Shown here: positions 32,519 through 48,088 of the stretch, one piece after another | Position numbering within the stretch: the stretch's first letter is position 1 | Layout: each line of letters opens with the position of its first letter | DNA from: Deltaproteobacteria bacterium | GTDB taxonomy: Bacteria > Desulfobacterota > Binatia > DP-6 | Length of the DNA: 48,857 nucleotides | Assembly (NCBI GenBank): GCA_005888095.1 | Contig: VBKF01000114.1 | Span: 1 to 48,857, forward strand | Direction of reading: 5' to 3' | Translations under genes and position numbers: made by a program | The notes under the pieces: generated by a model | Told to the model about the DNA's origin: nothing | The model's input: only the letters and a program-made list of their open reading frames with translations | Database searches by the model: none

Positions 32519-33649
32519 ATGGAAGCCCTGGCCAGGACCACGGTGCGCACGCGCATCCCGCTGATGGACTTGCGGCGGGAGTACCACGCGTCGCGCGACG
32601 AGCTGCTCGCGGCGTGCGAGCGTGTGCTCGGGCGGATGCAGCTGATCGGCGGCGAGGAGGTGCGGGCCTTCGAAGCGGAGATGGCGGCATACCTCGGCGT
32701 CCGCCACGTGCGCGGCGTGGCCTCGGGCACCGACGCGCTGTGGCTCGCCGTCGCCGCGGCGGGTGTCGGTCCCGGAGACGAGGTCCTCGTCCAGGCCAAC
32801 GCCTTCGTCGCCGCGGTCGAGGCGGTCCAGCGGGCGGGCGCACGGCCGGTGCCGGTCGACATCCGGCTCGAGGATCTCGGGCCCGACCCCGAGGACCTGG
32901 CCGCGCGGCTCTCGCCGCACACCCGCGGCCTGCTCGTGGTCCACCTCTACGGGCTGCCGGTCGACCTCCCGCCGCTCCTCGCCTTCGCCCGCGAGCGCCG
33001 GCTCGCCGTCATCGAGGACTGCTCCCACGCGCACGGCGCGACGGTCGACGGCCGGCGCGTGGGCTCCTTCGGCGCCGCCGGCGCCTTCAGCCTGGGGGTG
33101 GTGAAGAACCTCGCCGCCTATGGCGACGCGGGCATCGTCGCCACCGACGACGGCGAGGTCGCCGAGCGGGTCCGGCTCCTCGGCAACCACGGCCAGGCGA
33201 AGAAGAACGAGCACGCGGTCTACGGCGCCAACAGCCGGCTCGACGAGCTGCAGGCGGCAATGCTACGTGTCAAGCTCCGCATGCTCGACGCGCGCAATCG
33301 CCGGCGGGTGGAGATCGCCTCGTACTATACGGAGCGGCTGCACCAGCTCGTGGTCACGCCGCCCGAGGTCCCTTCGCGCACCGCCGTCTATCACCAGTAC
33401 GTGGTGCGCACGCCCCGGCGGGACGCGCTCCGGGCGTATCTCGCCGAGCGCGACATCGAGACGGGCATCCATTACCCCGTCCCCATCCACCGCCAGCCCG
33501 CCTGGCTCCGGACGTTCGGCGAGGGCCCGGCGCTGCCCCGCGCCGAGCGGGCGGCGCGTCAGATCCTGTCCCTGCCGGTCCACCCCGACCTCACCGATGA
33601 GGAGGTGGAGCGCGTGGCGGATGCGGTGAGCAGCTTCTTCCGCAGATGA
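32519..33649 (+). CDS. DegT/DnrJ/EryC1/StrS family sugar aminotransferase
   Basis: These PLP enzymes aminate keto-sugar nucleotides. The product (376 residues from ATG 32519; GTG 32516 also possible) begins IPLMDLRREYHASRDELL, then ASGTDALWLA (phosphate-binding), VIEDCSHAHGA (PLP-ring Asp) and SLGVVKNLAAYGDAG with the Schiff-base lysine, ending in the usual YHQYVVRTPRRD and HYPVPIH. It heads a tightly overlapping unit: a 4-base ATGA overlap joins it to the GT2 gene. Together with the Gfo/Idh/MocA gene it suggests making an amino sugar that is then attached to a polyprenyl carrier. The exact sugar is not readable. Confidence 0.92.
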   Translation: MEALARTTVRTRIPLMDLRREYHASRDELLAACERVLGRMQLIGGEEVRAFEAEMAAYLGVRHVRGVASGTDALWLAVAAAGVGPGDEVLVQANAFVAAVEAVQRAGARPVPVDIRLEDLGPDPEDLAARLSPHTRGLLVVHLYGLPVDLPPLLAFARERRLAVIEDCSHAHGATVDGRRVGSFGAAGAFSLGVVKNLAAYGDAGIVATDDGEVAERVRLLGNHGQAKKNEHAVYGANSRLDELQAAMLRVKLRMLDARNRRRVEIASYYTERLHQLVVTPPEVPSRTAVYHQYVVRTPRRDALRAYLAERDIETGIHYPVPIHRQPAWLRTFGEGPALPRAERAARQILSLPVHPDLTDEEVERVADAVSSFFRR

Positions 33650-34581
33650 GCGGCGAGGGACCGGCCCCGGCGCTGTCGCTGGTCGTCCCGGTCTACAACG
33701 AGGAGGAGAACGTCGGGGCGCTGCATGCCGAGCTCGGCCGGATCGCCGGCGAGCTCGCGTGCCCGTACGAGATCGTTTTCGTCAACGACGGCAGCCGCGA
33801 CGGCACGCTCGCGCGGCTCGAAGCGCTCGCCGCCGCGGACCCCCACCTCCACATCGTCGACCTGGACGGCAACTTCGGGGAGGCCGCGGCGCTCTCGGCG
33901 GGCTTCGCGCATGCGCGCGCCGCCGTCATCGTCACGCTCGACGGCGACGGACAGAACGACCCGGCCGACATCCCGCGGCTGCTCGCGCGGCTCGAGGACG
34001 GCTTCGACGTCGTCAGCGGCCGGCGCGTCGAGCGCCGCGAGGCGTTCCTCTCGCGCGTCCTCCCCTCCCGCATCGCCAACTGGCTGATCGCGCGCGCCAC
34101 CGGCGTGCCGGTGCACGACTGCGGCTGCGGCCTCAAGGCCTACCGCCGCGAGGTGGTCGCCGGCGTGCAGCTGCCGCGCGGCATGAACCGCTTCCTGCCC
34201 GCGATCCTCGGCGTCGATCCATCGCGCGTCGCGGAGGTGCCGGTCCGTGATCGGCCGCGCGGCGGCGGGCGGTCGCACTACGGCCTCGAGCGCGTCTTCG
34301 TCGTCTGCCGCGATCTCGTGGCGCTTCCGCTCCTCGTCCGGCGCCGCGCGCGAACACGGGCCCTGGCGCGCACGCTCGGGACGACGGGCGCCGTCCTCAC
34401 CGGCGTCGGGCTCGCGGCGCTCGCCTCGGCGCTCGTGCGTCCCGGAACCCACGGGATCGCGCTTGCCGCCACGCTCGCCGCTCTCCTGGCGGCGGCCGCG
34501 GGGCGAGCCATCGGGCACAACGTCGACCGGTTCGTCACGGCTCAGGAAGAGGGGGTATTTCGGGTGAGGGGGGTGGTGTGA
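33646..34581 (+). CDS. GT2 polyprenyl-phosphate glycosyltransferase (ArnC/DPM1-like)
   Basis: A 311-residue GT2 enzyme of the dolichol/undecaprenyl-phosphate sugar synthase type. It begins LSLVVPVYNEEENVGALH, with FVNDGSRDGT for the nucleotide, TLDGDGQNDP for the metal-binding site, CGCGLKAYRREV, and two C-terminal membrane helices (about 245-295). Such enzymes make undecaprenyl-phosphate sugars, the donor for ArnT/GT39 transferases, three of which are nearby. The charged RPRGGGRSHYGLERV loop is typical. Both neighbours overlap it (ATGA before; TGATG after). Confidence 0.9.
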   Translation: MSGEGPAPALSLVVPVYNEEENVGALHAELGRIAGELACPYEIVFVNDGSRDGTLARLEALAAADPHLHIVDLDGNFGEAAALSAGFAHARAAVIVTLDGDGQNDPADIPRLLARLEDGFDVVSGRRVERREAFLSRVLPSRIANWLIARATGVPVHDCGCGLKAYRREVVAGVQLPRGMNRFLPAILGVDPSRVAEVPVRDRPRGGGRSHYGLERVFVVCRDLVALPLLVRRRARTRALARTLGTTGAVLTGVGLAALASALVRPGTHGIALAATLAALLAAAAGRAIGHNVDRFVTAQEEGVFRVRGVV

Positions 34582-35600
34582 TGGGGAGGAGTCGGGTGAA
34601 CGTCGCCATCGTGGGCGTGGGGTACTGGGGGGGGAACTTGCTGCGGACGTTCGGCAAGCTGCCCGAGGTGCGCGTCACCGACGTCTGCGACCTCGATGCC
34701 AAGCGGCTCCGGGCGCTCGGGGCCGAGCACCCCGAGCTGCGCCTGATCGACGATCTCGGGGAGCTCGTCGGCCGCGACGACGTCGACGCGGTGGTGATCG
34801 CCACCCCCCCGTCGCGCCACCACACGATGGCGCTCGCCGCCCTCCACGCCGGCAAGCACGTGTGGGTGGAGAAGCCGCTGGCGCTCTCGGCCGCCGAGGG
34901 ACGCGAGCTCGTCGACGCGGCAGAGGCCGCCGGACGCGTCCTCTTCGTCGACGAGACGTTCCTCTACGATCCGCTGGTCGTCGAGATGAAGCGCCTGGTC
35001 GACCAGGGAGCGCTCGGCGAGCTCTACCATCTCTCCTTCGAGCGGCTCGGCATGGGCCGCATCCGGCGCGACTCGAACGTGTGGTGGAACTCGGCGCCGC
35101 ACGACCTCTCGATCCTCTTCCACCTGGTGCCGCGCCCCGTCGTGTCGACCCGGCTTCACCAGCACACCTACCTCCAGCCCGGCATCGCGGACATGGCCGT
35201 CTGCGACCTCGAGCTCGATGGCGGGGTCTCGGCGCACATCTATCTCAGCTGGCTCCACCCCGAGAAGACCGCCCGCGTCACGGTGGTCGGGAGCGAGCGC
35301 ATGCTGACCTACGAGGGGCGGTTCGAGAAGCGCGGCATCACGCTTTACGACTACGCCGTCGACCGGTCGACCACGAACGGCCGGGGGGCGGCCGCCCCCA
35401 TCCTGCCGGTGAGCCACTTCTTCGCGCGCCGCCTGGAGGTCCCCGCCGCCGCCGAGCCGCTCGGGCTTGCGGCGGCCCATTTCGTCGACTGTGTCGCGAC
35501 CGGGCGCGAGCCGCTCACCAGCGGCGCCCGTTCCCTGCGCGTCGTCGAGGTGCTAGAGGCGGCGGGGCATGGCGCAACGCAGGGGGGGCGAGCCGGCTGA
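34581..35600 (+). CDS. Gfo/Idh/MocA family oxidoreductase
   Basis: A 339-residue NAD(P)-dependent sugar oxidoreductase. The N-terminal Rossmann fold has VNVAIVGVGYWGGNLLRTFG, then VVIATPPSRHH and the family signature HVWVEKPLAL. The C-terminal beta-sheet domain carries SAPHDLSILFH with the usual catalytic Asp/His pair. These enzymes often oxidise C3 of a nucleotide sugar before a DegT aminotransferase acts, and a DegT gene sits two places upstream. ATG 34581 overlaps the GT2 stop by one base; the GTG at 34578 is an alternative. Confidence 0.9.
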   Translation: MGRSRVNVAIVGVGYWGGNLLRTFGKLPEVRVTDVCDLDAKRLRALGAEHPELRLIDDLGELVGRDDVDAVVIATPPSRHHTMALAALHAGKHVWVEKPLALSAAEGRELVDAAEAAGRVLFVDETFLYDPLVVEMKRLVDQGALGELYHLSFERLGMGRIRRDSNVWWNSAPHDLSILFHLVPRPVVSTRLHQHTYLQPGIADMAVCDLELDGGVSAHIYLSWLHPEKTARVTVVGSERMLTYEGRFEKRGITLYDYAVDRSTTNGRGAAAPILPVSHFFARRLEVPAAAEPLGLAAAHFVDCVATGREPLTSGARSLRVVEVLEAAGHGATQGGRAG

Positions 35601-36588
35601 GCGGCGGTCGGCCGGTAAGGCCGCCGCCTTCCTCGCCGGCGGGTTGCTCCTCGCGCTCCTCCTCTATCACGCCGGCATCGGTCCCGTCCTCGTCCGCCTC
35701 CGCGCGCTCGGCTGGGGCGCGCCGCTCGTCCTCGTCCCCTATCTCGTCATCGCCGCCTTCGACGCCCTCGGCTGGCGCTGCACGCTGCCGGCGACGGCCC
35801 GCGCGCCCCTCGGCGCCGTCTACCTCGCCCGCATGGCCGGCGAGGCGGTGAACAGCCTCACGCCGACGGCCGTGACCGGCGAGCCGCTGAAGGCGCACCT
35901 GCTGCGCGCCTGGGGTGTGTCGAGCGCCGACGGCGTGGCGTCGATCGTGATCGCCAAGACGGCGCTCACGGTGTCGCAGATCTTCTTCATCCTCCTCGGG
36001 CTGGCGGCCCTCTTCGACCGGCTCGATCAGGAGGCGCTCGGCGCCGCGTGGCTCGCGCTCCTCGTGGTGATCGCGATCGCCTTCAGCCTGACGCTGGTGC
36101 GCCTGCAGCGGCGCGGCCCCGCGCTGGCGGTGTGGCGGTGGCTCCGCCGCGTCGTGCCGCGCGCCGACTTCGTCGCCCGGCTCGAGGGCGGCGCGCAGGG
36201 GATCGACGCGCGGCTGGCGGACTTCTACACGATCGAGCGCGGGGCCTTCCTGCGCTCGACCCTGTGGCACCTCTGCGGCTGGCTCGGCGGCATCTTCGAG
36301 GTCATGCTCCTGATGGCGCTCATCGGGACGCCGATCGGGCTCCGCGACGCGCTGCTGGTCGAGGCGCTCGCCCAGCCGATCCGCGCCGTCGCCCTCGTCA
36401 TCCCCGGCGGCCTCGGCGCGCAGGAGGTGGGCGGGGTGGCGCTCTGTCGCTTCCTCGGCATCCCGGAGCCCGCGGCGGTCACGCTCTGGCTCTTGAAGCG
36501 CGCCCGCGAGCTCGCCTTCGACGGCGTCGGGCTCGCGTATCTCGCACGCTGGACCGCCACGCGCCGGGCCCGCGTCGAGGCGGGGTGA
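35569..36588 (+). CDS. UPF0104 / lysylphosphatidylglycerol-synthase-type (HpnL-like) membrane protein
   Basis: A 339-residue protein with about 8 membrane helices of the UPF0104 group, which includes the MprF flippase domain and the hopanoid-linked HpnL. Family traits are MAGEAVNSLTPTAVTGEPLKA after helix 2, the long third-helix region, and VIPGGLGAQEVGG before the last helices. It has no soluble synthase domain, so lipid movement is more likely than synthesis. The start lies 32 bases inside the preceding gene. Within this unit it could translocate the polyprenyl-sugar product. HpnL identity is possible because hpnJ and hpnI are 10 kb away, but not proven. Confidence 0.8.
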   Translation: MAQRRGGEPAERRSAGKAAAFLAGGLLLALLLYHAGIGPVLVRLRALGWGAPLVLVPYLVIAAFDALGWRCTLPATARAPLGAVYLARMAGEAVNSLTPTAVTGEPLKAHLLRAWGVSSADGVASIVIAKTALTVSQIFFILLGLAALFDRLDQEALGAAWLALLVVIAIAFSLTLVRLQRRGPALAVWRWLRRVVPRADFVARLEGGAQGIDARLADFYTIERGAFLRSTLWHLCGWLGGIFEVMLLMALIGTPIGLRDALLVEALAQPIRAVALVIPGGLGAQEVGGVALCRFLGIPEPAAVTLWLLKRARELAFDGVGLAYLARWTATRRARVEAG

Positions 36589-37857: not shown

Positions 37858-37974
37858 CACGTCGAGCTCGATCCCGATGAGGAGACCGGAGTTCTCGAGG
37901 GCATCCGGGAGATCGAAGTCGGCAAGGGCATCGCCGTGTCGAAGGTGCGGGCGAAGCTCACTCGGCAGCGCTGA
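37858..37974 (+). pseudogene. remnant of a second antitoxin-type tail
   Basis: Directly after the previous stop, and in the same frame, 38 codons read on to a TGA with no start codon near the beginning. The peptide (VLEGIREIEVGKGIAVSKV and neighbours) repeats the pattern of the preceding tail: Leu-Glu helix, Gly, hydrophobic pair, then EEV/SKV-x3-L. It looks like a partly deleted second antitoxin, or the old 3' end of a longer one cut by a new stop. It overlaps the opposite gene by 17 bases. Confidence 0.45.
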
Positions 37975-39547
37975 GCCCCTGCGGCTTCAGACGGAACTGG
38001 TGCACGCGGATCCCGTATCCGCCGTCCCTAAACTCCGAGACGTGCGCGGTGTCGTACCGCTCACGCAGAGTGCTGAGCTCGTGCTCGTTGACGAAGTTGG
38101 GATACTCGATGTACCAGACCTCCTGGGGCGGATGGGGCAGGCTGATGATGTCCGCGGCCGCCATGTAGCGCGGCATGACGGCTCCTGCCGCCGATGTCCT
38201 GCGGAACGTGACAGGGTCGACGCCGTCGTTGAAGCCGAACCACGCGTCTCCGTGCGTGGAGATCGTCGTTTCCCGGGTGGGCCGGATGTGCTCGAAGATC
38301 GCATCCTGGATCGTTGACAACTCCAGATGCTGAAGGTTGTAGACGAGCTGGTCCCTGCCGATACAGCCATCCACTTTGCCCAGCGGATACATGATCCGTT
38401 CGCCGAACGAGAACGTACCGAACATCGCCCGCGACAACGGATCCGCGCTGTAGAAGAGCGAGACCGTCTGCAGCAGCAACGCGACCATGAGGAGATGGTT
38501 GGCCAGGTTCCTCCTGCTCAGCAGATGCACCGCGCTCGCAGCGAACAGCAGCGATCCGAGCGGGAAGAGGGCCATGAAGTACCTCAGGTTGTTGACGTAA
38601 AGGTAACGGGTCAGGCAGTAGGCGCCGGCGCCGTAAAGAGCTGCGAGTAGCCAGACGAGGCGCGTGTCCTGTGTGGGCCGCGGCAAAGCGCCCCGATCCC
38701 ATTTCCAGAACCATACGAACGCCGCGATCGCGATCACACCGGTCTGCAGCCAGGTGAACTGGAACAGGAAGATCTCCTTCAGCATGAGCAGGAAGCGCGG
38801 TTCCAGCAGGCTGAAGCTCGTGAGCATGCGCAGGAGAGAACCTGTGTCCTTGCCTTCGAAGAAGGCGATGCCGCTCACGGAGTAGATGATGAAGAGGACC
38901 TGCGGCAGAAGGAGCAGGGGAATCCGCTGCCAGGAAGCCCGCAGAGCCGCGAAGGTGGAGCGGAAGTGCGGCCGCACGAGGAATATCCAGTGCGCCAGGA
39001 TGGCGAGGGTGTAGAAGAGGATCCCCGTCTCTTTCGTGAACGTCAGGAGGATTCCCGCGGCGATGATCCACGCGATGCGGTCGTAGAGCAGGAAGGCGAG
39101 GAGGATCACCAGGGAATAGGTGATGCCGATATCGGGATTGAACGCCGTCGCGTTGGCGACGATCACGGGCTGGGTCGCATAGAGCAGCGTCGCCAGGATG
39201 CGCGTCAGAGGAGGTGCGTGCGGCAGCAGCTTCTGGCAGATCGCGCTGAATGCGATGATAGACAGGGAGCCCCAGATCAGCACGATCCCGTGCAGCCACG
39301 GCAGGGATCCCGGGAAGAAGTGCTCGGGGATCGCGAAGATGCCTATGAACAGAAACGACGGATGCTGGAAGCAGAGGAAGTTCTGGAAATGGAACGGCGC
39401 ATGGGCCGCGTTCGACATGCAGTTGAAGTACCACCTTCCGTCCCAGAGCATGGGAAGGGTGAGGTATGGCAGCAGCAGCGCGAAGAAGACTCCGATGCCG
39501 GGTAGCGATTCCTGCAGCCATCGGGGCGGCATGCTCCACAGCTTCAC
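37958..39547 (-). CDS. multi-spanning membrane protein, GT-C glycosyltransferase-like, atypical base composition
   Basis: A 529-residue protein with about 10-11 membrane helices and a C-terminal soluble domain (about 400-525). I do not recognise a family. The layout (an acidic/aromatic loop after helix 1, WDGRWYFNCMSNAAH; repeated helices; FNPDIGITYSLVILLAFLL) resembles GT-C membrane glycosyltransferases. The base composition is clearly more AT-rich than its neighbours, and the protein is rich in Ile, Phe, Lys and Asn. That suggests recent transfer. The start is GTG 39547 or ATG 39532. Confidence 0.75.
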   Translation of the reverse strand: MKLWSMPPRWLQESLPGIGVFFALLLPYLTLPMLWDGRWYFNCMSNAAHAPFHFQNFLCFQHPSFLFIGIFAIPEHFFPGSLPWLHGIVLIWGSLSIIAFSAICQKLLPHAPPLTRILATLLYATQPVIVANATAFNPDIGITYSLVILLAFLLYDRIAWIIAAGILLTFTKETGILFYTLAILAHWIFLVRPHFRSTFAALRASWQRIPLLLLPQVLFIIYSVSGIAFFEGKDTGSLLRMLTSFSLLEPRFLLMLKEIFLFQFTWLQTGVIAIAAFVWFWKWDRGALPRPTQDTRLVWLLAALYGAGAYCLTRYLYVNNLRYFMALFPLGSLLFAASAVHLLSRRNLANHLLMVALLLQTVSLFYSADPLSRAMFGTFSFGERIMYPLGKVDGCIGRDQLVYNLQHLELSTIQDAIFEHIRPTRETTISTHGDAWFGFNDGVDPVTFRRTSAAGAVMPRYMAAADIISLPHPPQEVWYIEYPNFVNEHELSTLRERYDTAHVSEFRDGGYGIRVHQFRLKPQGLSAAE

Positions 39548-39709
39548 GAGCGACCTCCGCCCGCCTTCAAGGAGTGCCCCATGCGGTCGATGGTCTGCGC
39601 AGTGCGCGCGCGATCCACGCCGACGGCGTCACGGGCGGCGTTGTAGACTCCCACGGGGCTGGAAGTCGAGTCTGTCGCGCGTCTGTCGGCTCGTAGAAAC
39701 GGCCCCGAG

Positions 39710-40789
39710 CTAACCCGGCGCCCGCCGGAGGACGCTCACGAGCAGCACGAGCGCCGCGATCCAGAACACGTGCGAGCCGACGGCCGCGCCGAGGACGAGC
39801 CAGTCAAGTCGGCCGGCGAGCGCGAAGGGCACCACGAGGAGGTACCAGTCGCGCGTCGAGAGCGGGGCGAGCACGCCGTCGAGCACGCGGTTCTCCCAGC
39901 CGCCGGCGCGCCGGCGGCGGCTCTCTACGTGCTCGCTCCAGCTGATCACGGCGAAGGCGCCGAGGACGCCGAGCCCGAGGAGCGCGAGGACGGGCCAGCC
40001 GGGCACGCCGGGGCCGCGCACGAGCCGCCGCGCGAGACCACCGAGCACGGCCAGGTGGACGACGGTGTCGCCCCCCATGTCGAGCCAGTGGCCGAGGCGA
40101 GACTCCGCGAAGCGGAGCCGAGCCAGCTCGCCGTCTGCGCAGTCGAGCACGCCCGAGGCGATGAGCCCGGCGACGCCGCCCAGCACCGTGGCGCCGAGCG
40201 CGAGGCCCCCGACCACCCCGAGCACGATGCCGAGCAGCGTCACGGCGTTGGGCGTGAGGGGAGTCCGAAGCAGCAGCCGCGTGAGCGGCCGGGAGACCCG
40301 GCGGTGCAGGACACGGTCCAGCCAGCCGTCGCGCGGGTTCTCGAGGCCGCGAAGCAACGCACGCTCGACGACCCGCGCGGGGGCGGCCGCCGGAAGGAGG
40401 ACGCCGGCCCGGGGTGGCGCCGGCACACCGCCGTTCGTTGCCACCAGCGCGCCCGGTGCGACGCGCACTCGGGCGCCGTGGTGCTCGACGTCGAGGACCT
40501 CTCCCGGCCGGGCATGGGCCTGGAGGTCGTGAACGAGCACGGCGTCGATCACGGCACCGGGTCCGACCACGAGGCGGAGCGCGTCGTCGGCCGGGGCGTT
40601 CAGCCGAGCCGCCATGCCGACCGGCACGCGGATTCGCGGGTCGGCCGGCGGGGGCGTCCCGATGACCGTCAGGCGCTCGATCCCCGCGCGCTGCAGAACG
40701 AGCAGAGTGCGGAGGAGGAGCGGGACGCCGGCGACGGGAGGCCGGGGGTCCCCCGCCACCACGAACGCCTCGCGGATGGGCGCCGTCAT
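39710..40789 (-). CDS. CDP-alcohol phosphatidyltransferase with degenerate nucleotidyltransferase-like N-terminus
   Basis: A two-part protein of 359 residues. Residues about 175-355 are a CDP-alcohol phosphatidyltransferase: LTPNAVTLLG, then the complete catalytic motif D-x2-D-G-x2-A-R-x8-G-x3-D-x3-D at 216-241 (Asp216, 219, 237, 241), within about six helices. Residues 1-120 look like a nucleotidyltransferase fold (FVVAGDPRPPVAGVPLLLRT, AGIERLTVIG) without the GxGxR catalytic loop. The nearest known layout is the fused inositol-phosphate cytidylyltransferase/DIPP synthase. It is the last gene of the phosphonate operon and probably joins a CMP-activated headgroup to a membrane alcohol. Confidence 0.88.
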   Translation of the reverse strand: MTAPIREAFVVAGDPRPPVAGVPLLLRTLLVLQRAGIERLTVIGTPPPADPRIRVPVGMAARLNAPADDALRLVVGPGAVIDAVLVHDLQAHARPGEVLDVEHHGARVRVAPGALVATNGGVPAPPRAGVLLPAAAPARVVERALLRGLENPRDGWLDRVLHRRVSRPLTRLLLRTPLTPNAVTLLGIVLGVVGGLALGATVLGGVAGLIASGVLDCADGELARLRFAESRLGHWLDMGGDTVVHLAVLGGLARRLVRGPGVPGWPVLALLGLGVLGAFAVISWSEHVESRRRRAGGWENRVLDGVLAPLSTRDWYLLVVPFALAGRLDWLVLGAAVGSHVFWIAALVLLVSVLRRAPG

Positions 40790-41511
40790 GCGCCGAGACG
40801 GGGCAGCACCTCGCGCTCCGCCCGCTCGATGTCCTCGGGGAAGTCGATCTCCGTCCAGGGCATCCCGTCGACCCGCTCGAAGCCGACCGGCACGCGCGCC
40901 AGCAGGTCCGGGTAGACCTCCTCGTGCTCGATCCCGGTGTCGCCGCGCGCGACCCGCTCGGCCAGGAGGTCACGCAGCAGGCGCGCGGCCTCGGCCGAGA
41001 GCTTCAGGAAGCCGACGGACTCGCCCGCCAGCTGGTATCCTGGAGCGCCGCCGCGCACGATGTCGCGGACGCGACCGTCCGTGGTGAGCAGCATCTGCTC
41101 CTCGCCGGTGTTCTCGACGCTGGCGTCGAGCAGAAAGCAGTTCGGCTCGGGCGAGCGGACCAGCCGGTCGAGCATCGCCGGCGGGCAGAGGACGTCGGCG
41201 TCCATCACGAGGACGGCACCCGAGAGCCAGTCGCGCGCCGCCCAGAGCGACAGGATGGCGCCTTCGCGGAAGCGGTGGTTGACCACGAACCGGATGCGTA
41301 CGCCGCCGATCTCGTCGCCGACGGCGGCGCGCACCGCTTCGGCGCCGAAGCCCGTGACCACGACCGCGTCGCGCACACCCGCTGCCGCGAGCCCCTCGAT
41401 CAGGCGCACGAGGAGGCTCTTCCCGCCGATCTCGACGAGGCACTTCGGGCGGCCGCCGGAGGCGGTGAGGAGCCGCTTCCCGACGCCGGCGGCAAGGATG
41501 ATCGCGGTCAT
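40786..41511 (-). CDS. nucleotidyltransferase, probable CMP-aminoethylphosphonate (PntC/LicC-like) synthase
   Basis: A 241-residue sugar/choline-type nucleotidyltransferase. The catalytic loop is intact: IILAAGVGKRL (Gly9-x-Gly11-x-Arg13) and RPKCLVEIGGKSLL. AVLVMDADVLCP supplies the metal Asp, and MPWTEIDFPEDIERA closes the fold, as in choline-phosphate cytidylyltransferase LicC. Because it lies between the AEP transaminase and a CDP-alcohol phosphatidyltransferase, each joined by 4-base overlaps, CTP activation of 2-aminoethylphosphonate is the best reading. Related substrates such as phosphocholine or inositol phosphate cannot be excluded. Confidence 0.82.
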   Translation of the reverse strand: MTAIILAAGVGKRLLTASGGRPKCLVEIGGKSLLVRLIEGLAAAGVRDAVVVTGFGAEAVRAAVGDEIGGVRIRFVVNHRFREGAILSLWAARDWLSGAVLVMDADVLCPPAMLDRLVRSPEPNCFLLDASVENTGEEQMLLTTDGRVRDIVRGGAPGYQLAGESVGFLKLSAEAARLLRDLLAERVARGDTGIEHEEVYPDLLARVPVGFERVDGMPWTEIDFPEDIERAEREVLPRLGA

Positions 41512-42560
41512 CGCCCGAGGACCTCGTCGAGCGCGCCCAGGAAGCGCTCGAAGTCGGCCGTCCGGAGATGTCCCATGTTGGCGACCCGGAAGATGTCGCG
41601 CTGGAGCCGTCCCTGTCCCTCGTAGATGACGAAGCCGCTCGCCTTGAGCCCGTCGTGCAGCGCCGCGTAGCTCCGCTCCGCCGGCAGCCAGAGCGCGGTG
41701 ATCGAGTTCGAGCGCAGCTCGGGCGGGAGCACGAGCCGGAGCCCCTGGCGCTCGAAGCCGGCGCGCAGGAGAGCCGCCGCCGCCGCGTAGCGCCGGATGC
41801 GCGCCGCCACCCCTTCCTCGAGGAGCTCGGCGAGCGCCTCGTCGAGCGCGTAGGCCACCTGGACCGCAGGTGTGAACGGCACCTGCGCCTCGTGGTACGT
41901 GGCGAGCGAGAGGTAGAGCGAGCGCCGGGGATACGTCGCGAGCCGCCCGAGCACCGCCTCGCGCACGAGCACGAAGGCCATGCCCGGGAGGCCCTGGACG
42001 CACTTGTTGGCGGTGCCGACGACGAGGTCGGCCGCCTCGACGTCCAGTGGATCGCCCGCGAGGCCGCTGATCGAGTCGACCAGGAGGAGCTTGCCGCGCG
42101 CCCGCGCCAGGCGGCCCACCTCGGCGACGGGGTTCCGGAGACCCGTGGTCGTCTCGTGGTGGACGATCGCCACCGCCTCGACGTCGGGCGCGCCGAGCGC
42201 GCGCTCGACGGCGCCGAGGTCGGGCGGCGCCGTCCAGGCCCCCTCGACCACGGTGTGCGGGAGACGCGCGGCCGCCGCCATGGCGGCGATGCGCTCGCCG
42301 TACACGCCGTTGGCGACGACGACCAGACGGCCGCGCGGCGAGAGGACGCTCGTCACCGCCGCCTCGAGCGCCGCGGTCCCGGAGCCGGTCAGCACGATCG
42401 CGGCGAAGCCGCCCGTCGGCGCAAAGGCCGCGAGCAGCCTCGAGCGGATCGACGCGAGCAGGGCGGCAAACTCGGGCTCGCGGTGGCAGAGGTCGCCCCG
42501 CCCTAGCGCGCCCGTCACCCGGGGTGAGACGTTCACCGGTCCGGGGTTCAGGAGGATCAT
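41508..42560 (-). CDS. phnW: 2-aminoethylphosphonate--pyruvate transaminase
   Basis: This class V PLP aminotransferase interconverts phosphonoacetaldehyde and 2-aminoethylphosphonate with alanine/pyruvate. The 350-residue product begins MILLNPGPVNVSPRV, then GDLCHREPEF, LTGSGTAALEA (phosphate-binding), HHETTTGLRNP, VDSISGLAGD (PLP Asp) and TANKCVQGLPG with Lys186. Length and motifs match PhnW/AepZ. In an operon with PEP mutase it should run in the biosynthetic direction, unlike phnW next to phosphonatase genes. It overlaps both neighbours by 4 bases. Serine-type transaminases share the fold, but the context is decisive. Confidence 0.9.
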   Translation of the reverse strand: MILLNPGPVNVSPRVTGALGRGDLCHREPEFAALLASIRSRLLAAFAPTGGFAAIVLTGSGTAALEAAVTSVLSPRGRLVVVANGVYGERIAAMAAAARLPHTVVEGAWTAPPDLGAVERALGAPDVEAVAIVHHETTTGLRNPVAEVGRLARARGKLLLVDSISGLAGDPLDVEAADLVVGTANKCVQGLPGMAFVLVREAVLGRLATYPRRSLYLSLATYHEAQVPFTPAVQVAYALDEALAELLEEGVAARIRRYAAAAALLRAGFERQGLRLVLPPELRSNSITALWLPAERSYAALHDGLKASGFVIYEGQGRLQRDIFRVANMGHLRTADFERFLGALDEVLGR

Positions 42561-43123
42561 GTCGCGGCACCGAGGGCGCGGCGGAGGCGCGCCGTCATCG
42601 CTTCCGGCGCGTGCGGGACGCGCGGTCCGGGCGGCCCCGGCGGGCCGAGCGCGATGCGGACCAAGAGGAACGCGGGGCCCTCGCGCGCGAGGAACGCCTC
42701 GGCCGTGACCGCGTCGAGTGTCTCCACGCGCCCGCTCCAGCGGTAGCCGCAGGCGCGCGCGACCTCTTCCAGCCGGACGCGGTCCGAGATGGTCCGCTGC
42801 CCGCCCGTGGAAGCGTGGGCGCCGTTGTCGAAGCAGACGTGGTGCAGGTTCGGCGGCGCCGCGGCACCGATCGAGGCGAGCGCGCCGGGGTTCATGAGGA
42901 CGTTGCCGTCGCCGTCGAGCACGAGGACCCGGCGGTCGGGCCGGGCGAGCGCCAGCCCGAGGCCGATCGAGGCCGCGAGGCCCATCGAGCCGATCATGTA
43001 AAAACATTCCTCGCGGTCGCGCGCGGCGTATCCGGCCCGCGAAACGTAGCCGTTGGCGTGGACGCAGATGGTCCCCGCCGGGATGCGCGGAGCGAGGAGC
43101 CCGACTGCGTCGGCGAGCGTCAC
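42557..43123 (-). CDS. ppd: phosphonopyruvate decarboxylase, ThDP-binding (beta) subunit
   Basis: This is the C-terminal half of a thiamine-diphosphate decarboxylase. GTG 43123 gives 188 residues; the longer open frame to 43339 is a shadow of the alpha gene. It shows CFYMIGSMGLAASIGLGLAL and the ThDP/Mg motif GDGNVLMN through VCFDNGAH (GDG-x-N spacing), typical of phosphonopyruvate and sulfopyruvate decarboxylases. Most phosphonopyruvate decarboxylases are one chain of about 375 residues; here the halves are separate genes overlapping by GTGA, as in ComD/ComE sulfopyruvate decarboxylase. The neighbours favour phosphonopyruvate as substrate. Confidence 0.9.
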   Translation of the reverse strand: MTLADAVGLLAPRIPAGTICVHANGYVSRAGYAARDREECFYMIGSMGLAASIGLGLALARPDRRVLVLDGDGNVLMNPGALASIGAAAPPNLHHVCFDNGAHASTGGQRTISDRVRLEEVARACGYRWSGRVETLDAVTAEAFLAREGPAFLLVRIALGPPGPPGPRVPHAPEAMTARLRRALGAAT

Positions 43124-43623
43124 GCGAACAGTCCCGGACGGATGAGGAGCGCCACCGGTGTCCGGCGCTCGCGCATCTCGGCCGCGGCCCAGGCGACGTC
43201 CGCCTCGAGCGTCTCCGGCCCGGGCGCACGGTGCGGGATGCGGAAGAGGTCCAGGAGGTTCGGCAGGGCACGTCCCATGACCAGGTGCTCGGGGGCATCC
43301 TCGCCGCGGTAGCCGCGCCAGGTGACGAGCAGCAGGCACGGGATCCCGTAGAGGAGGTGGAGGGAGCCGAGGGCGTTCAGCGACACGCCGAGCCCCGAGT
43401 TCTGCATGACGACGACCGGCAGCCGGCCCCCGAGGTAGGCGCCGGCCGCCACGCCGAGCGCGGCGTCCTCCCGCGTCTCGGGAAGGTAGAGGCCGCGGCG
43501 GTCGAGCTCGGCGATCACGGGGCCAACGAGCGAGCAGGGTACGCCGACGAAGAAGTCGAAGCCGGCCGCCTGGAGACGGTCGACGAAGGGAGCCGCCCGG
43601 TTCAGCGTGCCACTTCCGCCCAC
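43120..43623 (-). CDS. ppd: phosphonopyruvate decarboxylase, Pyr-domain (alpha) subunit
   Basis: A 167-residue N-terminal half of the ThDP decarboxylase. It has FVDRLQAAGFDFFVGVPCSL, the catalytic glutamate context PETREDAALGVAAGAYLGG, VVMQNSGLGVSLNALGSL and LLVTWRGYRGEDAPEH, all as in phosphonopyruvate decarboxylase and ComD. It must pair with the beta subunit to build the cofactor site at the interface. The decarboxylase step makes the thermodynamically uphill PEP mutase reaction go forward. GTG 43623 overlaps the PEP mutase end by 22 bases; there is no other in-frame start nearby. Confidence 0.9.
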   Translation of the reverse strand: MGGSGTLNRAAPFVDRLQAAGFDFFVGVPCSLVGPVIAELDRRGLYLPETREDAALGVAAGAYLGGRLPVVVMQNSGLGVSLNALGSLHLLYGIPCLLLVTWRGYRGEDAPEHLVMGRALPNLLDLFRIPHRAPGPETLEADVAWAAAEMRERRTPVALLIRPGLFA

Positions 43624-45245
43624 GCGCGCCGGTAGTCGTCGAAGCTGTCGATCTCCATCCAGCCCTGGTGGATGTCGACCGCCGTGACCGGCTGCCCGCG
43701 GTCGATGAGCGCCTGGAGGATGTGCGTCATGCTGGCGCGCTCGAGTCCCTCGGCCCGGCCGCCCGCCAGCTCATCGTGCACCCTGAGGAGGGCGGCGGCC
43801 CCGTCGGCCGAGAACATCGCCATGCCGATGAACTCGCCGTGCGCTTGCTCCGGCGCGACGTCGGGGCCGATGCGCAGCACCCGGCTGCCGCCCTCGGGCG
43901 CCACGAAGCGACGGCCGTTCGGCGGCGTCTCCGTGACCACGAGATCGAAGGGACCTCCGGCGGGCGCGAGCCCGGCACGGTAGGCGTCGTGGAACGCCCG
44001 ATCCACCACGACGGCGACGTCGGCCCGGCTGGCGAGGAGCCGCGCCAGGATCGCCGGCTCGAAGATGATGTCGCCGTAGAGGAAGAGGAACGGGCCGCCG
44101 AGCGCGTCCCTGGCGCGCAGGAGCGAGTACAGCTCGCCCGTCTCCCGGAAGCGGTCGTTGTCGACGAGCCGCACGCCCGCGGCCGCCACCTGCTCCTTCC
44201 TGTAGCCGCGGACGACCGTGATGTCCCGCACGCCGCAGGTGTGGAGCGCCGCCACCTGCCGCTCGAGGATCGTGCGGCCCTTCACCTCGAGCATGGTCTT
44301 CGGCCGATCCTGGATGAGGGGCATCAGCTGGGGCTCGAAGCCGGCCGCCAGGATGACGGCGCGTGGCGGCTCGCTCCCTGCGAAGAGGAACCGCTGCTCG
44401 TTGGCCTCGAGCTCCGGCACGCCGACGAGCGCGTAGACGTCCTCCAGCGGCGCGATCCGGTCCTCGACGGTGGCCGCCCGGCCGCTGCGGCGGATCTCGC
44501 CGAGCGTGTCGCGCATGGCCACGATCGCGGCCCGGAGCGCCTGGTTGGCGAAGATCGCCATCCGGAACCCCGCCTTCGAGAGCTCGGCGGCGGTGACGCC
44601 GGGGTACGTGGTGGGCACCGCGACCAGCGGCACGCGCCCGTCCCAGGCGGCGGCGAACGCGGCCAGCTCACCGAAGTCCCGGGCCTTCGAATGGACGAGC
44701 ACGGCGTCGGCGCCGGCGGCCGCGTAGGCCCTTGCCCGGCCGAGAGCCTCTTCCACGCCGAGGCCCGCGATCAGCGCCTCGGTGCGGGCGATCACGGCGA
44801 AGGCGGGGTTGCGCCGAGCCGCAGTGGCAGCTTCGATCTTCCGCGCGTGCTCGTCGACTGCCACGAGATCGCGGCGAACCCCTGCGTAAAAGCTGCACCG
44901 CTTCGGGAAGTCGTTGTCCTCGATGCAGACGCCGGCCGCGCCCGCGCGCTCGAACTCGCCGACCGTCCGCATGACGTTGATCGCGTTGCCGTAGCCGTTG
45001 TCGCAGTCGGCGACGACGGGGATGCCGACGGCGTCGACGATGCGGCGGACCGCCTCGAGCGTCTCGGTGAGGGTCAGGATGTTCGCGTCCGGCACGGCCT
45101 GAACGGCCGAGATCCCGAAGCCGCTCGCCCAGACGGCGTCGAAGCCGGCTCGCTCGGCGAGCTTGGCCGACAGCGCGTCATGCGCGCCCGCCGCGAGGAC
45201 GACGGACCCTCGCGCGAGCAACGGCAGGAGCGGTTCCCGCGTCAC
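43602..45245 (-). CDS. pepM: phosphoenolpyruvate mutase fused to a nucleotidyltransferase domain
   Basis: PEP mutase makes the C-P bond of nearly all phosphonates. In this 547-residue fusion, residues 1-285 follow the mutase: WASGFGISAVQAVPDANILT (Asp53), ADCDNGYGN (Asp80, Asp82), CIEDNDFPKRCSF (Glu109, Lys115), VIARTEALIAG (Arg154) and LVHSKARD (His185). The loop motif EDK-x5-NS reads EDN-x5-CS, so the usual Asn (122 in the mussel enzyme) is Cys117. Residues about 292-547 are a LicC-like nucleotidyltransferase (RPKTMLEVKGRTILERQ, YGDIIFEP) whose loop reads AAGFEPQL, without GxGxR. It is the first gene of the operon, start GTG 45245. Confidence 0.92.
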   Translation of the reverse strand: MTREPLLPLLARGSVVLAAGAHDALSAKLAERAGFDAVWASGFGISAVQAVPDANILTLTETLEAVRRIVDAVGIPVVADCDNGYGNAINVMRTVGEFERAGAAGVCIEDNDFPKRCSFYAGVRRDLVAVDEHARKIEAATAARRNPAFAVIARTEALIAGLGVEEALGRARAYAAAGADAVLVHSKARDFGELAAFAAAWDGRVPLVAVPTTYPGVTAAELSKAGFRMAIFANQALRAAIVAMRDTLGEIRRSGRAATVEDRIAPLEDVYALVGVPELEANEQRFLFAGSEPPRAVILAAGFEPQLMPLIQDRPKTMLEVKGRTILERQVAALHTCGVRDITVVRGYRKEQVAAAGVRLVDNDRFRETGELYSLLRARDALGGPFLFLYGDIIFEPAILARLLASRADVAVVVDRAFHDAYRAGLAPAGGPFDLVVTETPPNGRRFVAPEGGSRVLRIGPDVAPEQAHGEFIGMAMFSADGAAALLRVHDELAGGRAEGLERASMTHILQALIDRGQPVTAVDIHQGWMEIDSFDDYRRAWAEVAR

Positions 45246-45459: not shown

Positions 45460-46914
45460 ATGCGGACGCTCTTCTTGAATCCGCCCTCGTACGAGGACTT
45501 CGACGGGGGGGCGGGCTCGCGCTACCAGGCGAAGCGCGAGGTCTGGTCGTTCTGGTACCCCACCTGGCTCGCCTACCCAGCGGGGATGCTCCCGGGCGCG
45601 CGGCTGCTCGATGCGCCTCCGCTCGACCTCTCCGTGGAAGAAACGGTGCGCATCGCGCGCGACTACGACCACGTCGTCGTCCACACCAGCACGCCGTCCT
45701 TCCGGGCCGACGTCCGCACCGCGCAGGCGATCAAGGACGCCAAGCCGGACACAGTGATCGGCTTCGTCGGCGGCCACGTAACGGCCATGCCGGAGGAGTC
45801 GCTCCGCTACGCCCCGGTGATCGACTACGTGGCGCGGAAGGAGTTCGACCTGGCGGTCGTGGGCGTGGCCGAGGGCCGGCGCTTCGCCGACGTGAAGAGC
45901 CTGAGCTTCCGACAGAACGGCACGGTCGTCCACAACGAGGAGTCCCCGCCGCTCACGACCGAGCAGCTCGACGCACTCCCCTTCGTCACTGACGTGTATG
46001 CCCGCGACCTCGACTACCTCCGCTACAACAGCCCGTACTGCCAGTACCCGTACGTGTCACTGTACACGGGACGCGGCTGCCCCGCGCGCTGCACCTTCTG
46101 CCTCTGGCCGCAGGTGACGACCGGGCACACCTACCGGGTGCGCAGCGCCGCCAACACCCTCGAGGAAGTGTCGCACATGAAACGGCTCTTCCCGAAGATG
46201 AAGGAGCTCTTCTTCGACGACGACACCTTCACGGCCGACCCGCCCCGGGCGCGGGAGATCGCCCGCGGCCTCGGCAAGCTCGGCATCACCTGGTCGACGA
46301 ACTCGCGCGCCAACGTCGACCGCGAGACGCTGAAGGTGCTGAAGGACGGCGGGCTCCGGCTCTTCGTCGTCGGCTACGAGTCGGGCAACGAGCAGATCCT
46401 GAAGAACATCAAGAAGGGCGTCGGCCTCGAGCGCGCGCGGCGCTTCACCCGCGACTGCCACGAGCTCGGCATCCTGATCCACGGCACGTTCATCCTGGGG
46501 CTCCCGGGCGAGACGCGGGAGACGATCGAGGAGACGATCCGCTTCGCCCAGGAGATGAACCCCGAGACGTTGCAGGTCTCGCTCGCGTCGCCGTACCCCG
46601 GCACGGGGTTCTACGAGTTCGTGACCAAGAACAACCATCTGACGGTGGACAGCCTGGTCGACGAGACCGGCTACCAGAAATGCACGGTCTCCTACCCGGA
46701 GGTCTCCGCCGACGAGATCTTCAAGGCGGTGGAGACGTTCTACCGCCGCTACTACTTCCGGCCGCGCTACATCTGGAAGGCGGTCAAGAAGATGGCCTCG
46801 AGCCGCGAGGAGGCGAGGCGGCTCCTCGGTGAGGGCGTGCAGTTCATCGGCTCGATGGCGAAGCGGCGGCGGATCGCGCGGAACGGGTCCGCAGCGCCCC
46901 CGCCGCCGTCATGA
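45460..46914 (+). CDS. hpnJ: hopanoid-associated radical SAM protein HpnJ
   Basis: HpnJ is a radical SAM enzyme of hopanoid side-chain synthesis, linked to forming the cyclitol ether of bacteriohopanetetrol from the glycosylated precursor. ATG 45460, with GGGAGGG upstream, gives 484 residues. The start MRTLFLNPPSYEDFDGGAGS and KREVWSFWYPTWLA are HpnJ hallmarks. A B12-binding-like N-terminal region precedes the cluster motif GRGCPARCTFC (Cys207, 211, 214), then ELFFDDDTFT, VGYESGNEQILKNIKKG and GTFILGLPGETRET. It overlaps hpnI by ATGA. It is cytoplasmic and oxygen-sensitive. Confidence 0.93.
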   Translation: MRTLFLNPPSYEDFDGGAGSRYQAKREVWSFWYPTWLAYPAGMLPGARLLDAPPLDLSVEETVRIARDYDHVVVHTSTPSFRADVRTAQAIKDAKPDTVIGFVGGHVTAMPEESLRYAPVIDYVARKEFDLAVVGVAEGRRFADVKSLSFRQNGTVVHNEESPPLTTEQLDALPFVTDVYARDLDYLRYNSPYCQYPYVSLYTGRGCPARCTFCLWPQVTTGHTYRVRSAANTLEEVSHMKRLFPKMKELFFDDDTFTADPPRAREIARGLGKLGITWSTNSRANVDRETLKVLKDGGLRLFVVGYESGNEQILKNIKKGVGLERARRFTRDCHELGILIHGTFILGLPGETRETIEETIRFAQEMNPETLQVSLASPYPGTGFYEFVTKNNHLTVDSLVDETGYQKCTVSYPEVSADEIFKAVETFYRRYYFRPRYIWKAVKKMASSREEARRLLGEGVQFIGSMAKRRRIARNGSAAPPPPS

Positions 46915-47666
46915 CTGTGCTCGCGGTCGCCGTCCTCGCCTGTGCGACGGTTGCGACGGGGTTCCAGCTCTTCCAGGTCGCGGCCGCGTGGCGCTTCCTC
47001 CGCCGCGCACGCCGCGGAAGGCAGGCCGGGGCCCTGCCGCCCGTCACGGTGCTGAAGCCCCTCAAGGGCCCCGGCGTCGAGCTCTACGAGAACCTCGCGA
47101 GCTTCTGCAGGCAGAGCTATCCGAGCTACCAGATCGTGTTCGGCGTCGCGGACGCCCATGACCCGGCGGTGGCGGTGGTGCACCGTCTGCGGCGCGATTT
47201 TCCCGAACGCGACATCGTGCTCGCCGTCGGGAGCGGGCGCGGCACGAACCGCAAGGTCGCGAATCTCGAGCACATGATGCCCCACGCGCGCCACGACGTG
47301 CTGGTGATGAGCGACAGCGACATCCGCGTCGGCCCGGACTATCTCCGGACGATGGTTGCGCCGCTCGCAGACCCGGCCGTGGGGCTCACGACCTGCCTCT
47401 ATCGCGGCCGTGGCAATTTCGGGCTGCCGTCGATCATCGAATCACTCTTCATCAACACGGACTTCGTACCGAACGCGCTGGTGGCGCACTGGGTGCAGCC
47501 CTTCCGCTATGCCTTCGGGGCGTCGATCGCCGTCACGCGGGAGGCGCTCGAGCGGATCGGCGGGTTTGCGGCCTTTGCGGACTATCTGGCGGACGACTAC
47601 CAGCTCGGGCGGCGGGTTGCGGAGGCGGGCTACCGGCTCGTGCTGCTGCCCTACGTCGTCCGGTGA
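46911..47666 (+). CDS. hpnI: hopanoid glycosyltransferase HpnI, N-terminal fragment
   Basis: HpnI is a ceramide-glucosyltransferase-like GT2 enzyme that adds an N-acetylglucosamine-type sugar to bacteriohopanetetrol. This frame (251 residues) carries the N-terminal helix, PPVTVLKPLKGPGVELYENL, VADAHDPAV, VMSDSDIRVGPDYL (DxD) and ADDYQLGRRVAEAG (third Asp). It ends at LLPYVVR, just before the region holding the Q-x-x-RW motif. That region continues in the next frame. The two pieces sum to about 392 residues, a full HpnI. It is either a frameshifted pseudogene, a sequence error, or a split enzyme coupled by the GTGA overlap. Confidence 0.85.
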   Translation: MTVLAVAVLACATVATGFQLFQVAAAWRFLRRARRGRQAGALPPVTVLKPLKGPGVELYENLASFCRQSYPSYQIVFGVADAHDPAVAVVHRLRRDFPERDIVLAVGSGRGTNRKVANLEHMMPHARHDVLVMSDSDIRVGPDYLRTMVAPLADPAVGLTTCLYRGRGNFGLPSIIESLFINTDFVPNALVAHWVQPFRYAFGASIAVTREALERIGGFAAFADYLADDYQLGRRVAEAGYRLVLLPYVVR

Positions 47667-48088
47667 CGCTGCGCGACGTCTGGCGGCACCAGGTGCGCTG
47701 GGCGCGGACGTACCGGGTGTGCCAGCCGGTGGGCTGGTTCTGCTCGGTGGTGACGCACGCGACGCTGTGGGGTCTTGTCGCGGCCTTGGTACTGGGTAGG
47801 CCGGTCGGGTGGGCGGTGCTGGCGTCGGCTCTCACGGCTCGGCTCTTCTCGCTCGCTGCGATCATGCGGCTCCTCCGAGAGCCCGAGACGACGCGGTACC
47901 TCGGCCTCGTCCCGCTGAAGGATCTCGTTACGTCGGCGATGTGGCTCGCGGCGTTCCTCGGGCGGCGAGTGGTGTGGAGCGGGCGTGTGTTCCGCGTGTG
48001 GCGGGATGGGAGGATCGTGCCGGTCGGAGTGGTGGAGTCGGAGGTGCCGGCGTTTGCGGGCGAGGAGCTGCGGGCGGCCGGGAGTTAG
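47663..48088 (+). CDS. hpnI: hopanoid glycosyltransferase HpnI, C-terminal fragment (QxxRW and membrane part)
   Basis: A 141-residue frame offset by -1 from the preceding one. It starts at a GTG overlapping the previous TGA and at once reads LRDVWRHQVRWARTYRVCQP, containing the Q-x-x-RW acceptor motif that completes ceramide-glucosyltransferase-like enzymes. Two or three membrane helices follow (VGWFCSVVTHATLWGLVAAL; VGWAVLASALTARLFSLA) and a short tail. On its own it lacks the nucleotide-sugar domain. The join seems a few residues shorter than I expect for the family, which favours a small deletion. Confidence 0.82.
   Translation: MTLRDVWRHQVRWARTYRVCQPVGWFCSVVTHATLWGLVAALVLGRPVGWAVLASALTARLFSLAAIMRLLREPETTRYLGLVPLKDLVTSAMWLAAFLGRRVVWSGRVFRVWRDGRIVPVGVVESEVPAFAGEELRAAGS

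Follow-up and report, generated by a model that had tools for sequence, protein, structure and literature searches.

The operon and its gene order

We analysed a window of 48,857 nucleotides, positions 1 to 48,857 of contig VBKF01000114.1 (GenBank assembly GCA_005888095.1), from a deltaproteobacterium of the class Binatia whose genome is a 5.46-Mb draft assembly. On the minus strand of this window, from position 45245 down to 39710, lie six genes, all with open frames free of internal stops, which we regard as a likely phosphonolipid operon, that is, one predicted from its protein families to make 2-aminoethylphosphonate (AEP) and attach it to a lipid. In operon order these are:

PepM-NTT, 43602–45245, minus strand: 547 aa; PepM-type domain (residues 1 to ~290) fused to a MobA-like NTP transferase domain (from ~295)
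PpdA, 43120–43623, minus strand: 167 aa; phosphonopyruvate/sulfopyruvate decarboxylase subunit A (N half), PF02776
PpdB, 42557–43123, minus strand: 188 aa; decarboxylase subunit B (C half), PF02775
AEPT, 41508–42560, minus strand: 350 aa; 2-aminoethylphosphonate aminotransferase, PhnW-AepZ TIGR03301
NTT2, 40786–41511, minus strand: 241 aa; stand-alone PntC/LicC-like cytidylyltransferase, likely the synthase of CMP-AEP, the cytidine monophosphate (CMP) derivative of AEP
CDP-OH, 39710–40789, minus strand: 359 aa; CDP-alcohol phosphotransferase with an additional N-terminal domain, PF01066 at 1.6e-7

A first-pass annotation of this DNA had claimed six genes on one strand with overlaps of 22, 4, 4, 4 and 4 bases, which the frames and coordinates confirm; beyond it, we find that gene 1 is a fusion and that gene 6 carries about 140 residues ahead of its transferase domain. 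The Pfam and NCBIfam assignments of the six proteins, for which PpdB and AEPT frames 1 and 4 codons longer, respectively, were used, are consistent with the gene names, but PepM, the two Ppd halves and AEPT all score under their curated NCBIfam cut-offs: PepM reaches 269.4 bits on the PEP_mutase model TIGR02320 (319.55), AEPT 321.5 bits on TIGR03301 (360.8), and PpdA and PpdB 114.4 and 160 bits on TIGR03297, whose cut-off of 312.5 is for the whole protein. The same gene order was found in related genomes: G001, G004 and G013 carry it on a single contig, and G003 has ~3.6 kb separating PpdB from AEPT. As the order recurs in these four genomes, the operon is more than a chance arrangement. A promoter and terminator scan of the operon gave no signal above chance.

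Linkage to hopanoid genes

The operon is flanked by genes of hopanoid metabolism. A divergent hpnJ-hpnI pair begins 214 bases from gene 1, and an hpnL-like gene lies ~3 kb from the operon on the opposite strand:

hpnJ, 45460–46914, plus strand: radical SAM protein, TIGR03471 at 716.5 bits (cut-off 577.6)
hpnI, first 250 residues, 46911–47666, plus strand: TIGR03472 at 301.5 bits over positions 3–249 of 373 (cut-off 310)
hpnI, remainder in another frame, 47663–48088, plus strand: clusters with the HpnI of relatives
hpnL-like flippase gene, 35569–36588, plus strand: PF03706 at 3.1e-29, TIGR03476 at 175.4 bits (cut-off 195.65)

The window hpnI (46911–48088) occupies two frames with a 4-base overlap, and its G001 counterpart is a single frame of 420 aa; the two-frame state could be either a real split or a sequencing frameshift. 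Outside the window, the host genome encodes SHC (795.3 bits) and HpnK (309.9 bits), and the complement for the cyclitol-ether pathway, namely SHC, HpnI (split), HpnK and HpnJ, is present in the host.

We compared gene positions across 193 relatives, of which 85 have hpnJ over the cut-off, and counted genes within 25 kb of hpnJ; the resulting counts are lower bounds, the misses including genes on other contigs, and the genomes are related and so not independent. AEPT lies within this distance in 16 of the 29 genomes having both genes, NTT2 in 16 of 28 and PepM in 9 of 26. For CDP-OH the figures are 17 of 51 strong matches and 4 of 34 weaker ones, while control aminotransferase paralogues gave 1/52 (1/51 plus one row on another contig). 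The presence of hpnJ is also associated with the PepM-NTT gene (26 of 34 genomes with it versus 59 of 159 without), and within the class the comparison stands at 26/33 versus 55/115 (Fisher p 0.0016, kinship not being removed from this value).

The arrangement differs between families of loci. Family f1 has the order hpnI-hpnJ/pepM...cdpoh. In family f5 the run hpnN-ppdA-ppdB-aept-ntt2-hpnK faces hpnI-hpnJ (G016, G022 and G029) with pepM elsewhere; hpnN-ppdA is also found in G010, G042, G049, G055, G073, G090 and G103 of this family. In G022, HpnK scores 310.7 bits and HpnN 602.3 bits, the latter under its cut-off of 751.85. In family f6, ntt2 is next to hpnK in six genomes (G011, G023, G036, G050, G056 and G080), two of which, G011 and G080, also have hpnJ/cdpoh on that contig. 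Families f7 and f15 have cdpoh-hpnL beside hpnJ and no AEP orthologues at the cut-offs used; under the proposal of a new hopanoid class, considered below, the same transferase would there attach another head group.

Two f15 loci, L127 (2051–12445) and L128 (1946–12431), have a run that starts with a HAD phosphatase, an NTP transferase, one further gene and an aminotransferase-like gene (assigned by eye), and continues with a Gfo/Idh dehydrogenase, CDP-OH, an HpnL-like gene, HpnK, a transporter and hpnJ; the L127 genes were profile-scanned. This looks like the attachment of another nitrogenous head group through the same transferase.

A variant motif in the first enzyme

Gene 1 combines a PepM domain (PF13714, 3.3e-56) with an NTP transferase domain (PF12804, 8.5e-15). 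Compared with solved structures, its PepM part matches phosphoenolpyruvate (PEP) phosphomutase first (5unc, 277.6 bits) and phosphonopyruvate hydrolase second (2dua, 247.8 bits), the lyases and CPEP mutase reaching 127.7 bits at most. In a tree of 40 rows, the window PepM and its relatives group with PEP mutase and the hydrolase, separate from the lyases, and a planctomycete PepM is sister to the canonical PEP mutases plus the hydrolase (support 100/98), with weak support for the deepest forks of the PepM group. The gating loop is of a variant type:

gating-loop motif EDNDFPKRCS, 44892–44921, minus strand: replaces EDK(X)5NS of PEP mutases

EDK(X)5NS is required for PEP mutases in the parts of PMC6697681, PMC8931226 and PMC12723261 that deal with the motif. 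The PepM-NTT fusion gene occurs in 34 of the 193 relatives, the host genome counted (E up to 8.1e-90), and all 34 loci were inspected. The sequence EDNxFPKRCSFY is found in 30 of the 34 fusion genes and EDKxFPKxNSF in the other four (G030, G062, G063 and G164); the PepM of the planctomycete locus (L012) is of the EDN type too. When the 34 sequences are aligned, three substitutions (Lys→Asn, Asn→Cys and Val→Thr) distinguish every EDN sequence from every EDK sequence, and a fourth, His→Gln, does so almost completely (Gln in 28 of the 30 EDN sequences). Eighteen PepM positions were checked, of which four (111, 117, 155 and 235) differ by type and 14 are identical in both, gaps and one masked row aside. 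PepM retains Ser41, Asp53, Asp80, Asp82, Glu109, Lys115, Arg154 and His185, among them the six residues Asp53, Asp80, Asp82, Glu109, Arg154 and His185, which we take to be the metal and substrate ligand positions (equivalents from structure alignment).

The DNA pattern EDKxFPKxN(S), which is stricter than the published EDK(X)5NS, matched 4 of the 193 relatives; these are the same four EDK genomes, and none is of the EDN type. A protein search of the 193 relatives gave no close PepM besides the fusion genes, and the host genome holds just one further PF13714 member, without the EDK(X)5NS motif. In genus g25, the same pair of AEPT and NTT2 is found with an EDN-type PepM (G036 and G068) or an EDK-type PepM (G030 and G062). 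The EDN/C type is likelier to be a PEP mutase that surveys have discarded than a sign that these genomes hold the other AEP pathway genes but lack a mutase, and the occurrence of this pair with either type strengthens that view. The predicted structure of PepM-NTT was poor (mean pLDDT 54.4, from an alignment of 3 sequences), so it was not used.

Near the separate pepM-NTT gene of family f5 we observed two further genes: a squalene-cyclase-repeat protein of ~320 aa adjoins it in 11 of 11 loci (L083, L088, L092, L098–L104 and L112), and a Rieske-family protein lies close by in 10 of the 11; only the L083 copies were profile-scanned. Methylisocitrate-lyase-like genes are found near hpnJ in family f11 (L137, at 12225, and L138, at 6364).

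Nucleotidyltransferase and CDP-alcohol phosphotransferase domains

The first-pass annotation had assigned cytidylyl transfer to a single nucleotidyltransferase at 40786–41511. Two such domains exist in the operon, of which that one, NTT2, is the better candidate for CMP-AEP synthesis, since it keeps the Arg and Lys of the signature and the domain fused to PepM is without the Arg:

NTT2 signature GVGKRLLTASGGRPK, 41443–41487, minus strand: Arg and Lys retained, Lys in the place of Thr/Ser
fused NTT signature AAGFEPQLMPLIQDRPK, 44298–44348, minus strand: degraded, catalytic Arg lost, Lys kept

The closest solved structure to NTT2 is the PntC-AEPT of T. denticola (6pd1, E 1.1e-11), followed by LicC. 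Compared with the PntC signature GXG(T/S)R...PK, NTT2 reads GVGKR...PK: all 31 orthologues retain the Arg and the Lys, and the window sequence has Lys where the signature has Thr/Ser. Arg13, Lys23, Asp104, Asp106 and Glu197 are invariant in all 31. Glu197 aligns with PntC Glu196, which is placed to contact AEP, and Asp104 aligns with PntC Glu104, which is Asp in LicC (both as described for PntC in PMC6697681). Set against the Pnt pathway as presented there, NTT2 most resembles T. denticola PntC: the Arg, the Lys and the Glu196 equivalent are retained, but the Glu104 equivalent is Asp, as in LicC. NTT2 probably makes CMP-AEP.

The fused domain lacks the catalytic Arg in the EDN-group signatures compared, though G068, which was outside that comparison, has GDGGR, and the mutation Arg15Ala is reported to leave T. 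denticola PntC with less than 10% activity (PntC experiments in PMC6697681). With the Arg lost, we consider it unlikely that this domain is an active cytidylyltransferase. It may still do something, as it is well conserved as far as the planctomycete and as G068 has GDGGR.

The last enzyme of the operon has the following features:

CDP-OH catalytic motif D..DG..AR(8)G...D...D, 40067–40144, minus strand: complete in 19 of 19 loci matching at E 1e-20 or better
CDP-OH N-terminal domain (residues 1 to ~140), 40370–40789, minus strand: alpha/beta pattern, apparently a decayed nucleotidyltransferase

We take D..DG..AR(8)G...D...D to be the motif of CDP-alcohol phosphotransferases. The nearest solved proteins are AF2299 (4o6m, E 5.7e-14), a PIP synthase fusion and IPCT-DIPPS. 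Bifunctional IPCT-DIPPS and AF2299 share with the window CDP-OH a two-domain layout and the same catalytic motif; unlike in this comparison pair, the N-terminal domain in the window is without a cytidylyltransferase signature (no GxGxR and no PK). A structure model of CDP-OH, which is poor (alignment of 5 sequences, mean pLDDT 56.8) and of which only the Foldseek match was used, with caution, matches AF2299 and IPCT-DIPPS along its length. On this basis the N-terminal domain is apparently a decayed cytidylyltransferase.

Related loci outside the class

In a planctomycete locus (L012, genome G193), an EDN-type PepM, PpdA, PpdB, AEPT, NTT2 and a divergent CDP-OH are all neighbours. A tblastn search with PepM-NTT in plasmids returned 99 records, of which 15 cover at least 80% of the query; we examined 7 of these 15, plus one partial match. 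The window CDP-OH had no match in the plasmid search, and the partial match, from Mesorhizobium, is a gene closer to phosphonopyruvate hydrolase.

In Roseomonas marmotae, the order is NTT, pepM, ppd, HpnL, AEPT and CDP-OH, followed by ispH, hpnH, a phosphorylase, shc, hpnE, hpnD, hpnC, a glycosyltransferase and hpnA, with HpnN (1012.5 bits) on the opposite flank of the AEP set. Its pepM is of the EDK type (382 bits), and its HpnL is over the cut-off (259.6 bits). Mycetohabitans endofungorum has CDP-OH, a 2-oxoglutarate (2OG)-Fe(II) oxygenase, an HpnL-like gene, NTT, pepM, ppd, AEPT, dxs, an MMPL transporter, ispH, hpnH, hpnA, shc and hpnD. A seven-gene run of CDP-OH, 2OG-Fe(II) oxygenase, HpnL-like, NTT, PepM-NTT, Ppd and AEPT is found in Cupriavidus, Mycetohabitans and four Burkholderia (L164, L165 and L166–L169).

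Discussion

The gene content of the operon, its conserved catalytic residues and its conserved linkage to hpn genes are what we observe. From these sequences we infer every reaction, enzyme substrate and acceptor in the pathway proposed here, in which a PEP mutase whose gating loop departs from the canonical form would turn PEP into phosphonopyruvate, phosphonopyruvate would be decarboxylated by PpdAB, AEP would be formed by the aminotransferase and CMP-AEP by the stand-alone NTT2, after which CDP-OH would transfer AEP to a lipid alcohol with loss of CMP and the HpnL-like protein may flip the lipid product. The first-pass annotation is partly supported in its overall interpretation. The biosynthetic direction, the CMP-AEP intermediate and the membrane-lipid acceptor that it put forward are consistent with the protein families and their conservation; its view that the chemistry runs straight through from PEP to CMP-AEP fits the families but is weaker at the first step, as PepM is without the motif that defines PEP mutases. 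A catabolic reading was rejected on the make-up of the operon, in which the PepM-type step is followed by a decarboxylase, and AEP formation by a cytidylyltransferase and a lipid transferase; no genome-wide search for phosphonate uptake, C–P lyase or phosphonatase genes was made.

As the hpnJ/hpnI and hpnL neighbours are tied to the operon by the comparative data, a hopanoid is a serious candidate for the acceptor. Somewhat in preference to other readings, we suggest that the operon makes AEP and loads it on a membrane lipid, the most likely acceptor in this host being a hopanoid polyol, either bacteriohopanetetrol or its glucosamine or cyclitol-ether form made by HpnI, HpnK and HpnJ. We put the presence of an aminoethylphosphono-hopanoid in this host at about an even chance. 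The wider proposal of aminoethylphosphono-hopanoids as a new lipid class, with AEP on a bacteriohopanetetrol-type lipid, HpnL as its flippase, HpnN as its exporter and the EDN/C-type PepM as the starting enzyme, is more tentative, and we would hold it slightly more doubtful than not. According to the account of hopanoid synthesis in PMC12583986, HpnI, HpnK and HpnJ form the route to the cyclitol ether, HpnJ making bacteriohopanetetrol cyclitol ether in known hosts, HpnN is a transporter and the function of HpnL is not yet established; none of the 63 hopanoids, in five types, is named as a phosphonate in that account.

Several observations weigh against the proposed pathway and its hopanoid acceptor. 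CDP-OH homologues adjoin hpnJ in families without AEP genes as well, 34 of the 51 strong CDP-OH matches are not near hpnJ, and no hpnK stands beside ntt2 in the G017, G030, G062 and G068 loci. In the planctomycete, SHC and HpnJ are on contigs other than that of the AEP genes, and the 9–16 kb flanks of the Burkholderia and Cupriavidus loci contain no queried hpn gene other than hpnL. The diagnostic EDK(X)5NS is absent from the window PepM (EDNDFPKRCS), and Thr155 and Gln235 change along with the motif. Finally, eight genomes have AEP pathway genes without an SHC match better than 1e-8 (completeness in %: G013 98, G023 97, G036 96, G043 88, G056 95, G074 81, G091 70 and G164 98); three of the eight are less than 90% complete, and the match in G036 is just 3.9e-8. 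Because of these eight genomes a hopanoid cannot be the sole acceptor. In them some other acceptor must serve; the transferase may thus be less selective, or the hpn genes may act on other lipids. HpnJ may likewise act on non-hopanoid lipids: hpnJ is over the cut-off without an SHC better than 1e-8 in 7 of 85 genomes (G013, G025, G036, G045, G056, G069 and G074).

Alternatively, the same chemistry could use diacylglycerol or alkylacylglycerol as acceptor, giving a glycero-phosphonolipid, the carbon–phosphorus analogue of phosphatidylethanolamine, with the hpn genes as neighbours because both sets tailor the membrane. Choline/ethanolamine-type CDP-alcohol phosphotransferases use diacylglycerol. 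The eight genomes without a hopene cyclase also speak for this alternative, as does the abbreviation list of PMC5987646, from which diacyl- or alkylacylglycerol seems to be the acceptor proposed for the related printed clusters. It leaves unexplained the hpnN...hpnK runs, the AEP genes that lie among hpn and shc genes in Roseomonas and Mycetohabitans, and the linkage to hpnJ of 16/29 versus 1/52, and we consider it rather unlikely, though the strongest competitor of a hopanoid acceptor.

It is improbable, in our view, that the first enzyme, of the EDN/C type, belongs elsewhere in the superfamily, for example as a phosphonopyruvate hydrolase or a C–C lyase using its Cys, and that another aminoalkyl phosph(on)ate is made. 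Besides the absence of EDK(X)5NS, such a role would be in line with the PepM Cys, which sits at the position of the lyase Cys next to an ART signature as in the lyases, and with the slightly higher score of PpdA as sulfopyruvate decarboxylase alpha. The lyase Cys has a catalytic role. On the other hand, the sequence is closest to PEP mutase, the tree places it with PEP mutase and the hydrolase, a decarboxylase and an AEP aminotransferase accompany it, and sister genomes pair the same genes with a canonical PepM. It is also fused to an NTT, as are a third of the PEP mutases in the count given in PMC6697681. A sulfopyruvate pathway, prompted by PpdA scoring 123.8 bits on TIGR03845 against 114.4 on TIGR03297 (PpdB scores lower, 145.1 bits, on TIGR03846 than its 160 on TIGR03297), was rejected, since cytidylyl transfer requires a phosph(on)ate.

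That AEP decorates a glycan of the capsule or lipopolysaccharide is very improbable: the PntC clusters treated in PMC6697681 are discussed there mainly in terms of cell-surface glycan tailoring with LicD-like proteins or glycosyltransferases, and a GT2-type glycosyltransferase lies at 33646–34581, but the transferase here is a membrane CDP-alcohol phosphotransferase with a clear PF01066 domain and catalytic motif, and the six genes include no LicD-type transferase.

The phosphonolipid idea as a cluster type is already in print. For lichen Nostoc and for Burkholderia, the Fig. 7 legend of PMC5987646 lists a cluster comprising CDP-alcohol phosphatidyltransferase, OG-Fe(II), NTPT, pepM, ppd, AEPT and hpnL, and labels it phosphonolipid synthesis, citing Yu 2013. 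CDP-OH, NTT, pepM, ppd, AEPT and hpnL are all present here too. As far as that legend describes the printed cluster, the window differs in having no 2OG-Fe(II) oxygenase among the six genes, a split Ppd, a non-canonical PepM motif, a CDP-OH with an extra N-terminal domain and an hpnL placed 3 kb away on the opposite strand, and in being linked to hpnI/J, its relatives being linked to hpnK/N. It differs from the Pnt pathway, as given in PMC6697681, in that CDP-OH takes the place of LicD as transferase and the fused domain has lost its Arg. For Roseomonas, hybrid clusters of SHC and PEP mutase are described in PMC8776678, whose authors suggest that the cluster is a hybrid and point to a terpene-phosphonate still to be discovered; this is the only paper joining hopanoid and aminoethylphosphonate wording within the literature collection searched. 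The tie of PEP mutase to hopene cyclase is the same here. The passages of that paper on these clusters name no transferase, whereas we find a cytidylyltransferase, CDP-OH, HpnL and HpnI/J/K/N tied in, in an unrelated class. What the locus and its relatives add is the EDN/C PepM, a variant that published motif surveys would filter out, the division of the decarboxylase into two subunits, the decay of two nucleotidyltransferase domains and the linkage to hpnI/J/K/N.

The AEP operon and its hopanoid linkage predict a kind of lipid yet to be sought. If the proposal is true, hopanoids, the sterol-like lipids of bacteria that are widely used as molecular fossils, also exist in a form with a phosphonate head that has gone unrecognised, hpnL gains a testable functional proposal, and counts of phosphonate producers that use the marker motif overlook a whole bacterial group. 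Roseomonas is a culturable genus that carries the AEP set, and offers a direct route to testing for aminoethylphosphono-hopanoids.

Two further regions of the window may be mentioned. Directly downstream of the operon, a frame of 529 aa resembling a membrane protein (37958–39547, minus strand) was without a Pfam or NCBIfam hit at an E threshold of 0.01, and tblastn against the relatives' loci compared returned no match; the G+C content of the region 38001–40000 is lower, at 64%. Upstream of hpnL, the plus-strand region 33646–35600 encodes the GT2 glycosyltransferase and a Gfo/Idh dehydrogenase, homologues of which are found in some of the related loci.

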